DNA from: Bifidobacterium lemurum
GTDB lineage: Bacteria; Actinomycetota; Actinomycetes; Actinomycetales; Bifidobacteriaceae
DNA length: 64,000 bases
Assembly (NCBI RefSeq): GCF_014898175.1
Contig: NZ_CP062948.1
Location: 2,901,104-2,965,103, forward strand
Reading direction: 5' to 3'
Shown piece by piece: positions 16,818 through 18,781 of this stretch. Every line of letters begins with the position of its first letter. Within the stretch, counting starts at the first letter, position 1. Position numbers and translations under genes: made by a program. Under the pieces are notes generated by a model. The model did no database searches and was not told the DNA's origin. It saw nothing but the letters and a program-made list of their open reading frames with translations.

Positions 16818-17432
16818 TTACGAGCGCACGAGTTCGATGTCATTGTCGGACATCTCCTCGCGGGCGACCTGACCGAGTTCGGCGCTGACCGGCACGGTGA
16901 GGTCGGTGAAGACGCGCACATCATAGCCGAGGCGTTGCGCGTCGAGCGCGGTCTCCTTGACGCAATGCGATTCGGCGATGCCGACCACATCCACTTGGGT
17001 CACGTCGGCGTCGGCGAGCGCGGTGGCGAGAGTTCTGCCCGCCTCGGCCTCGGCGGCGACCTCGTCGCGCGTCTGGATGCGGTCGGTGTTGTCTTCGATG
17101 CCTTCGAAACCAGAGTAGGCCGCGGAATACTGGCCTTTCTTGAAGTGGTGCTCGATGTTCAGCGCCTTGACGGCCGGATGCAGTTCGGCGTTCGGCGTGC
17201 CCGCCTTGCCATGGACCGGCCAGGTGTCCACGAAGTCCGGCTGGTCGGACCAATGCCCGCCCGGCTCGATATGCCAATCCTGCGTGGTGGCGATATACGC
17301 GTATTCGTCGCGATGCGCCGCCACATACGCGGCGATGCGCCCGGCCACCGCGTCGCCGCCTTCCACGCCGAGCTCTCCGCCCTCGCAAAAGGTCGGCTGC
17401 ACATCCACCACGATCAATGCCTTGCGTACCAT
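16818..17432 (-). CDS. pncA: Nicotinamidase / isochorismatase-family hydrolase
   Basis: A 204-residue enzyme that should convert nicotinamide to nicotinate for NAD salvage. The catalytic triad is visible as D10 in IVVDVQ, a Lys in HFKKGQ (about 98-99) and C157 in AESHCVKET. Metal ligands are D52, H54 and H60 in QDWHIEPGGH. ATG 17432 was chosen over upstream Mets because AAGGAGG sits 7 bp before it and the Asp motif follows directly. It stands alone. The niacin importer and its NrtR regulator are elsewhere in the window (48.2-50.6 kb), which makes a salvage route coherent. Confidence 0.93.
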   Translation of the reverse strand: MVRKALIVVDVQPTFCEGGELGVEGGDAVAGRIAAYVAAHRDEYAYIATTQDWHIEPGGHWSDQPDFVDTWPVHGKAGTPNAELHPAVKALNIEHHFKKGQYSAAYSGFEGIEDNTDRIQTRDEVAAEAEAGRTLATALADADVTQVDVVGIAESHCVKETALDAQRLGYDVRVFTDLTVPVSAELGQVAREEMSDNDIELVRS

Positions 17433-17489
17433 ATCGGCCTCCTTCTTGCCAACAACCATCATAGCCACGCAAGCACGCGTTTGGGCGAG

Positions 17490-17708
17490 TCACAACGTGA
17501 CACGGTCCCAGAGTTCCGGCTTGGGGATGCCGCGGATCGGCGAGCACACCGCAATCGCAAGCCCGACGATCGCGCAGGCCAACGCGAGCGCCGCCACCGA
17601 ACATTCTGCCACATCCGAATATCCCGCCAGAGGAGATGATCCGGAACTTGCTGCCCATCCGCCCACGCTGAGGACCGTGCCAACGTGGACGTTTCGGCAT
17701 AAACCCAC
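17490..17708 (-). CDS. Possible small single-helix membrane protein or gene remnant
   Basis: An open frame of up to 72 residues (GTG 17708) ends in about 25 hydrophobic residues (VAALALACAIVGLAIAV) and a short charged tail. The N-terminal part overlaps the first palindromes of the array at 17662-18054. It may be the tail of a lost membrane-protein gene, a real small protein, or chance. No family is recognised and no good ribosome-binding site is seen. Confidence 0.25.
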   Translation of the reverse strand: MGLCRNVHVGTVLSVGGWAASSGSSPLAGYSDVAECSVAALALACAIVGLAIAVCSPIRGIPKPELWDRVTL

Positions 17709-18054
17709 AATCCATCCACGTTGATGACCATCAGCGTGGATAATCCGTCAGTTACCACCCATCCTCCCACACTGAGGACCGCGTCAACGTGGACATTTCG
17801 ACATAAACCGACATTCCATCCACGCTACCGATCGTCAGCGTGGACGACCCGTCAGTCACCGCCAATCCGTCCACACTCAGCACCCCGTCAGTGTGGACGT
17901 TTCGACATACACCGACAATCCATCCACGTTGATGGCCAGTAGCGTGGACGATCCGTCAGTTACCACCCATCCGCCCACACTGAGGACCGTGCCAACGTGG
18001 ACGATTCGTCAGCAACCGACCATTCGTCCACGCTCAGCACCTTGCCAACGTGGA
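17662..18054. repeat. Array of eight imperfect palindromes at ~52-bp spacing
   Basis: Eight 26-29-bp hairpin units lie at 17662-17689, 17715-17740, 17765-17793, 17819-17844, 17870-17897, 17923-17948, 17974-18001 and 18027-18054. Each begins with a form of (T)CCCACRCT or TCCACGYT and ends with a form of AACGTGGA, CAGCGTGGA or CAGTGTGGA. Start-to-start distances are 53, 50, 54, 51, 53, 51 and 53 bp. The ~25-bp linkers are also related (GTTTCGACATAAACCGACA alternating with CGATCCGTCAGTTACCACC), giving a ~104-bp higher-order repeat. It fills most of the 680-bp gap between pncA and the gene at 18113. No protein-coding reading is convincing. Confidence 0.9.
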
Positions 18055-18112
18055 TGAATGGGCACCTTCTGTTCAATCATCCACGCCACCGACCATCGTC
18101 GCCCTCACGGCT

Positions 18113-18781
18113 ATGATGAACCGCATGGAAGATCATGCGGACCATACGGACCATGCGGACCATACGCATAAGAGGCACGATCTGGGCGATACGGTATGCC
18201 GGTGGCTGGTGGCCGTGCAGGTCATCGTCACAGTGGCCGGCACCGCATTCGTGCTGATCGAAGGGCTCAGCGAGGACGGCGACCACACGCTGGTGCTGAA
18301 CTTCTGCACCTTCTCCTCAACGGTGATCATCACCTTGATCTCCATCGTGATTCTGTGGACGGAGTTGATACGCGGCTTTTGGACCGTGCTGGCGATGCTC
18401 GTCCTGCCCAGCATCGAGTTCGTGCTCGGATGCGCCGGCGCGACCCTGATGCTGGTGCAGCTGGGTATGCACGGACTGACGATGGTCGGACAGTTCGGTC
18501 TGATCCTCGCGCCGTTCCTCGGATTCCTGAACAATGCGATCCCCACCACGCATCAGGCGATGAAAGACGAGGAGCTCGCCGATCTGCGAGGCGTGCATCG
18601 GGCGAACAAGGACCGCGAGCAGCAGATCCAACGGCTGGCGAAGCACGCGCCGGAACACGAGCTTTCGCCGCGGCCTCAGGCGCAGACCTTCGAAGAGCCG
18701 TTCCGATGGCGGGAGATCATCAAATCCATCGCGCTGGCGCTGGCCGCCTTGGCGTACATCCTCGGATTCCTGTGGCGCTGA
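18113..18781 (+). CDS. Membrane protein with His-rich N-terminus, function unknown
   Basis: About 222 residues. The N-terminus carries alternating His/Asp repeats (HADHTDHADHTHKRHD) encoded by short direct repeats at 18131-18170, which could bind metal ions or simply reflect repeat slippage. Four hydrophobic helices follow between about 35 and 150. Then comes a polar helical stretch with GVHRANKDREQQIQRLAKH and a last C-terminal helix. ATG 18113 was chosen; 18116 and 18125 are in frame and no clear ribosome-binding site separates them. No family was recognised. It lies directly downstream of the palindrome array, so that array may affect its expression. It converges with the MATE gene. Confidence 0.65.
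   Translation: MMNRMEDHADHTDHADHTHKRHDLGDTVCRWLVAVQVIVTVAGTAFVLIEGLSEDGDHTLVLNFCTFSSTVIITLISIVILWTELIRGFWTVLAMLVLPSIEFVLGCAGATLMLVQLGMHGLTMVGQFGLILAPFLGFLNNAIPTTHQAMKDEELADLRGVHRANKDREQQIQRLAKHAPEHELSPRPQAQTFEEPFRWREIIKSIALALAALAYILGFLWR

Follow-up and report, generated by a model that had tools for sequence, protein, structure and literature searches.

The arrays described here find their closest likeness in REPs, BIMEs and REPIN clusters: dispersed intergenic palindromes that occur as single copies and in ordered tandem clusters (available text of PMC3116915 and PMC3733652). As far as the available text of these sources goes, the units of ordered REPIN clusters are nearly identical (PMC3116915) and a GTAG or CGTC tetranucleotide stands at one end of the REP or REPIN hairpin (PMC3733652). 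In contrast, the units of the present arrays have diverged at about one third of their positions, no constant tag is seen in them by eye, the length of the linker is nearly fixed, and the carrier genomes have no match to Y1_Tnp. What we report is a set of evenly spaced palindrome arrays, larger than first described, that belongs among the clustered intergenic palindromes. Known bacterial families of intergenic palindromes are recognised mainly by sequence, whereas here geometry appears to be better conserved than sequence. A literature search found no title or abstract describing such arrays, though most subscription papers were outside its reach.

The DnaA box is TTRTCCACA, and DnaA-box clusters such as datA carry repeated TTATCCACA-type boxes. 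Like the present arrays they place repeated short sites in a non-coding stretch, and the half-sites are similar at seven of nine positions; the arrays differ in their consensus, in the inverted pairing of the sites and in their strict phasing near 52 bp. Plasmid centromere arrays and iterons (parC and tubC, for example) also carry repeated sites at helical spacing, to which dimers bind cooperatively. Such binding would be a putative property of the arrays described here, which differ in having many chromosomal copies, unrelated neighbour genes and no partition gene among 28 scanned proteins. CRISPR arrays share partly palindromic repeats and regular spacing, but the present arrays lack a near-identical repeat and their intervening stretches are homologous to one another; with cores and linkers both forming diverged homologous series, they are not classed as CRISPR arrays.

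An array of eight palindromes at fixed spacing

Within the window (the whole stretch of 64,000 nucleotides of Bifidobacterium lemurum DNA that was analysed, from the genome labelled G000) the array extends from 17663 to 18085. It occupies the divergent gap between a gene for an isochorismatase-family protein on the minus strand and a gene for a His-rich putative membrane protein on the plus strand, the latter without a Pfam family at E 0.001. Eight palindromic cores of 26 or 24 bp are each followed by a linker of exactly 27 bp, and the array ends in half a ninth core:

16818..17432, minus strand: flanking gene, isochorismatase-family protein (PF00857), directed away from the array
17663..17688, unstranded: core 1 (26 bp)
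17689..17715, unstranded: linker 1 (27 bp)
17716..17739, unstranded: core 2 (24 bp)
17740..17766, unstranded: linker 2 (27 bp)
17767..17792, unstranded: core 3 (26 bp)
17793..17819, unstranded: linker 3 (27 bp)
17820..17843, unstranded: core 4 (24 bp)
17844..17870, unstranded: linker 4 (27 bp)
17871..17896, unstranded: core 5 (26 bp)
17897..17923, unstranded: linker 5 (27 bp)
17924..17947, unstranded: core 6 (24 bp)
17948..17974, unstranded: linker 6 (27 bp)
17975..18000, unstranded: core 7 (26 bp)
18001..18027, unstranded: linker 7 (27 bp)
18028..18053, unstranded: core 8 (26 bp)
18054..18080, unstranded: linker 8 (27 bp)
18081..18085, unstranded: terminal half-core CCACG (ninth, half only)
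18125..18781, plus strand: flanking gene, His-rich putative membrane protein (alternative start GTG 18050)

Half-cores also terminate the arrays at L009, L010 and L029.

The original prediction had described eight regularly spaced palindromes lying 50–54 bp apart. Their number and regularity are borne out, and the loose range gives way to a stricter rule: start-to-start distances are exactly 51 or 53 bp, in alternation, because core length itself alternates (26, 24, 26, 24, 26, 24, 26 and 26 bp in order). Between core centres (17675.5, 17727.5, 17779.5, 17831.5, 17883.5, 17935.5, 17987.5 and 18040.5) there are six steps of exactly 52.0 bp and a final step of 53, because two 26-bp cores adjoin there. 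A real period of about 104 bp, also proposed, agrees with the result of Tandem Repeats Finder (17654–18032, period 104, 3.6 copies, score 485). The division of the units into odd and even subfamilies holds for the window array, where identity is 0.73 between linkers at lag 2 and 0.60 between those at lag 1, but not for most of the others among ten arrays compared. Cores of 26 and 24 bp alternate in other arrays too, in several of them along only part of the array.

Each unit of ~52 bp contains one dyad-symmetric core of the form CCACGCTGA-n-TCAGCGTGG. The palindromes are imperfect (self-complementarity of 46–83% among the window cores) since constancy is confined to the outer CCAC[GA]/[CT]GTGG halves and the middles vary. 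A strict core pattern matches the window five times and none of 100 shuffles (mean 0.00, maximum 0). A coding repeat was rejected, the period of 104 not being a multiple of three and no listed open reading frame covering the whole array; a phage or plasmid origin was likewise rejected, with zero matches in a phage collection and zero in a plasmid collection. A separate 9-bp tandem repeat (CATACGGAC) at 18134–18166 of the window codes for the His/Asp-rich start of the flanking membrane protein; its version in the sister species (G031) differs by substitutions.

Arrays at dispersed sites in the same genome and in relatives

A DNA search of the window's own genome returned ten matches at three places, to which pattern and model searches added more. 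G000 contains at least six array sites, at ~297, 562, 1212, 1587, 1701 and 2919 kb, the last being the window array; the 1587-kb array is a short one whose linkers measure 27 and 23 bp. A lone unit lies near 525 kb. Ten arrays are found in the sister species, at ~823, 1052, 1201, 1249, 1402, 1794, 2259, 2293, 2509 and 2865 kb, together with a lone unit at 2490 kb (L093).

The wider genus was represented by a set of 112 congeners. BLASTN gave matches in only two of these, G000 and G031. A sequence-only model, R1, built from 20 two-unit pieces, matched 17 of the 112 at E 0.01, strongly in G000 and G031 alone. Periodicity analysis of the weak model matches revealed 104- or 52-bp periods in G005, G010 and G008 (two places each), and a gapped pattern found arrays in G053 that repeat mainly at 102, 52 and 154 bp. 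By lineage the periods are thus 104 bp in G005 and G010, 52 bp in G008 and 102/52 bp in G053. Confirmed arrays are present in six of the 112 congeners (G000, G005, G008, G010, G031 and G053), which is a lower bound. Fourteen further weak R1 loci (L050–L061, L067 and L068) showed no 52/104 period peak and are not counted as arrays; one of them, L057, belongs to the carrier G053.

In the four carriers other than G000 and G031 the linkers are different, but the core half-site, around CACGCTGA, is similar, though degenerate in one of them. The core around ACGCTGA..TCAGCGT recurs in G005, G053 and part of G008, and is degenerate in G010. Linkers in G005 are 27 bp long and of another sequence; those in G053 are either 26 bp with a CCACRTGTGG middle (19 linkers) or 27 bp with CCATGGCATGG-like middles (4 linkers). 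Near a G005 array there is another tandem repeat, unrelated to it and of period 135 (L075:2166–2570).

A strict unit pattern was also applied to 396 sampled genomes of the order, 22 of them from the same genus. Eighteen matched, G000 three times and the others once each; the single matches outside G000 are about as many as in the reversed control, and we read them as chance. No arrays were recognised in the 374 sampled genomes of other genera with this pattern, whose strictness is such that it caught just three of the many G000 units. A pattern scan of named genomes, which may omit records close to the window's genome, gave 11 stretches, none of them array-like by model R1.

Linker length and conserved positions

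Spacing was counted in 15 arrays of G000 and G031 as the gap between a right half and the next left half, with no spacing imposed; the loci were chosen by similarity to the array, and the census therefore describes recognisable arrays. The gap is 27 bp in 78 of 91 cases and 26 or 28 bp in none. Of the 13 remaining gaps, four exceed 27 by one unit (three of 80 and one of 78), as expected from a missed half-site. Core lengths shown in the census, out of 95, are 26 bp (44), 24 bp (24) and 25 bp (4). When gaps of 17–37 were allowed, the forward matches had a gap of 27 in five of six cases in G000, 11 of 11 in G031 and three of three in G005; G053 had a gap of 26 in 11 of 12, the other one being 27, and the one match in the carrier G010 has a gap of 37. 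Among the forward matches listed for genomes without confirmed arrays, a hand count gives gap 27 in nine of 42, several of these being the same sequence in different species. Exceptions to the spacing are one 28-bp linker next to a degenerate half (L032) and one 23-bp linker in the 1587-kb array, which is outside the 15.

The sequence of the linkers differs at about one third of positions: mean identity is 0.66 within arrays and 0.61 between arrays (ten arrays), against 0.25 for letter-shuffled linkers. G000 and G031 were also compared over eight intergenic pieces nearby, where a hand count gives 19 indels against 157 substitutions. A single badly aligned piece accounts for 12 of these indels; leaving it out gives 7 per 108. 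At either rate, linkers so diverged should show several changes of length, and just two are seen, which speaks for DNA geometry. This is an argument from rates and not a formal test, since the units share ancestry. MAFFT alignment of two orthologous array pairs places a single gap inside each array, of 51 bp, that is, a whole unit. BLAST of the window array against its orthologue instead gives four small gaps (2–4 bp) in core centres and none in linkers, where MAFFT has only the 51-bp gap.

Whole-unit change is also what an ordinary functionless tandem repeat, its length kept by unit-wise recombination, would produce, and copy number does shift by whole units at two aligned shared sites. We nonetheless judge this explanation quite improbable: the units are not homogenised, positions are unequally conserved, and lineages that differ in their linkers share a related half-site and period. 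Linker identity is hardly higher inside an array (0.66) than from one array to another (0.61), so that most arrays are not recent tandem amplifications. As to the pattern expected of a simple satellite, a clearly closer likeness of units inside an array than across arrays, these two values lie near each other, and among those examined near-identical stretches occur only in the 562k array (92% at lag 208), L075 (94% at lag 104) and L066 (93–94% at lags 117 and 169). Spread by unequal exchange, one of three readings first offered, accordingly stands in one respect, the two aligned shared sites differing from the sister species by one whole 51-bp unit each, and falls in another, because recent tandem amplification fails for most arrays.

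Certain linker positions scarcely vary. In a profile of 70 linkers from G000 and G031, T3, G4, G8 and C34 are present in all 70, G13 in 69, C25 in 66 and C30 in 61; others are free to vary, and variation elsewhere consists mostly of transitions. Some of these conserved positions are symmetrical about the linker centre, with G8 opposite C30 and G13 opposite C25. The half-site YCRTCCACG resembles the DnaA box, and TTATCCACA-type clusters were seen at L012 and at the B. pseudolongum locus L042; an array of this kind might titrate the initiator in the manner of datA. That the arrays are such clusters is nevertheless exceedingly improbable. Where the box carries T, their consensus carries C (61 of 70, with T in nine), and its final position is G (58 of 70, with A in 11); both DnaA-box clusters seen show no 52-bp phasing by eye. 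The arrays were not assigned to the DnaA-box clusters, the 70-linker profile being different from the TTATCCACA-type box. The cluster at L012:2690–2800 (1416 kb in G000) is itself a compact, TTATCCAC-type DnaA-box-like cluster with both orientations, upstream of what appears by eye to be the start of a response regulator. A similar cluster is present in B. pseudolongum (L042), and L037 and L039 match the same pattern.

Folding and pairing of the palindromes as RNA

The palindromes could instead be transcribed, forming an array of hairpins (in 3′ or 5′ untranslated regions, for example) that protects, terminates or sequesters. The window array folds better than shuffles on both strands (z −10.9 on the minus strand, −6.8 on the plus), as do most of 26 arrays (25 shuffles each). 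Mismatches are one-sided in some arrays: counted on the plus strand, those of the window linkers comprise 30 A.C and 3 G.T, hence G.U on the minus strand, a bias for which transition-biased, strand-asymmetric mutation could account. Although both strands fold well, paired columns do not covary, and the hairpin reading raised in the original prediction finds no support in this check. Within-array shuffling puts linker pairing below the shuffles on both strands (z −3.2 to −3.5), the 26-bp cores at −1.1 to −1.7 and the 24-bp cores at +0.5 to +0.9; pooled pairing shows no excess save at two inner pairs of the 24-bp cores, which overall are not different within arrays. RNA hairpins, moreover, need no fixed 27-bp linker, and neither a terminator-like nor a promoter-like site was found in 17380–18200. 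We regard a transcribed array as unlikely. A known RNA family was rejected, the only Rfam matches at E up to 1 being two sub-threshold plant miRNA matches. The minus strand of window 17654–18060 folds far better than the plus; several other arrays are also one-sided, and neither replication strand nor gene direction gave a consistent rule (by eye).

Comparison with the sister species

Ten sites were compared between G000 and G031. Units are present in both genomes at four: window/2865k, 562k/2259k, 297k/2509k and 525k/2293k. The possibility raised at the outset, that the palindromes would not be conserved between strains, was followed in the sister species only, where they are conserved at the shared sites. 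No array was found at the G031 flanks corresponding to the G000 arrays at 1212k and 1701k, with a possible half-core-like remnant at 1701k (by eye), nor in G000 for the G031 arrays at 1052k, 1201k and 1249k; for the lone G031 unit at 2490k, the placement comes from its flanks only. The G031 arrays at 823k, 1402k and 1794k are unplaced in the G000 stretches compared, and the G000 array at 1587k was compared with a subset of G031 loci only.

Such differences are what one would see if the arrays were built from a non-autonomous mobile repeat: an inverted repeat of ~47 bp (CTCAGCGTGG-N27-CCACGCTGAG), multiplied and moved by a putative enzyme, like a REPIN cluster but without a RAYT transposase. 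The 1201k array faces a short site in G000, the 1249k array lies inside a 578-bp difference, and the 525k/2293k site carries a single unit in G000 but seven in G031. Single units exist. L010 and L029, which are non-matching loci, share 584 collinear bp at 75% identity that include the array and a transposase zinc-ribbon fragment recognised by eye. Five of 14 G000/G031 sites lie less than 500 bp from a tRNA gene, as does one of two G008 sites; none of the 11 sites of G053, G005 and G010 does. We consider this explanation possible yet doubtful. No target-site duplication was recognised by eye at the 1201k site, where, as to the pattern expected of a MITE, the array stands against ~10 bp of other sequence (by eye). 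Most units are old and divergent, recent amplification being slight apart from the exceptions named above (the 562k array, L075 and L066), and a linker of nearly invariant length is not something that selfish spread would predict by itself. The RAYT domain (Y1_Tnp, PF01797) matches in seven of the 112 genomes, none of which is one of the six array carriers; the control was positive in five of 14 well-known genomes. No constant GTAG or CGTC tag was seen by eye at the hairpin ends in the unit listings. Because the six carriers gave no Y1_Tnp match, the tags are absent by eye and the units are not near-identical, we do not file the arrays as REPs or REPINs. If they are mobile all the same, they would represent a REPIN-like repeat with an enzyme not yet known.

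Zinc-ribbon-like degenerate fragments lie directly beside arrays at L010:3733–3945 and L029:3505–3719 (by eye). Insertion of the isolated unit at L093 was rejected, since the alignment with G000 shows no clean empty site. The same locus contains (L093:2209–2250) a dispersed repeat of ~42 bp (GATCCTTCGACTC...CGGGATGAC) with ~40 matches in the window's own genome, a family distinct from the arrays.

A putative protein-binding platform

The reading that we favour, at a probability of roughly 0.45, is that the arrays are double-stranded DNA sites, about five helical turns apart, for a putative dimeric DNA-binding protein, with selection keeping the half-sites and their spacing. A multi-site binding platform had been among the three readings first proposed, and it is the one that best fits the rigid spacing, the near-invariant dyad-symmetric positions and the dispersal of the arrays; binding itself is predicted from sequence. 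Linkers of nearly fixed length set the dyads 52–53 bp apart, or about five helical turns. One sequence-specific dimer would bind each dyad, and neighbouring dimers, lying on one face of the helix, might bind cooperatively or polymerise; selection would hold half-sites and spacing while other positions drift. The role may, more tentatively, be chromosomal (nucleoid organisation, boundary or titration) rather than the control of single genes, because the arrays adjoin many unrelated genes. No recombinase or DNA-binding Pfam family recurs among 28 neighbouring or nearby proteins, which are part of all array neighbours; the families that do recur, ABC transporters (three) and MFS transporters (two), are common ones.

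Several observations count against a binding platform. Because the linker consensus differs from lineage to lineage, the protein would need to have co-evolved; arrays are confirmed in six of 112 congeners and their presence differs between sister species, so the function would be dispensable. The 28-bp linker (L032), the 23-bp linker (1587 kb) and the gap of 37 in G010 break the spacing, in some arrays one strand folds far better as RNA than the other, and when BLAST compares the window array with its orthologue, four gaps fall inside core centres. A broader proposal, which we offer as a tentative one, is that of a hitherto undescribed chromosomal element of the genus in which the ~52-bp period and the CACGCTGA-like half-site are conserved and the linkers turn over by lineage: a putative co-evolving reader protein would assemble on one face of the DNA and organise or mark the chromosome, often where gene content changes. 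If a protein does read the arrays, they would define a new chromosomal DNA-binding system, for which presence and absence in sister species is a natural experiment.

At five of the ten sites compared (window/2865k, 562k/2259k, 1212k, 1701k and 2490k) a length difference of ~2.6 to 17.5 kb between G000 and G031 lies right beside the array. The largest such difference in one 19.9-kb stretch of the window against G031 is ~570 bp, which serves as a comparison and not as a proper baseline. Opposite the 1701-kb array of G000, two very large adjacent open reading frames (2228 and 3020 codons; L104:2595–18452 in G031) occupy most of 17.7 kb.
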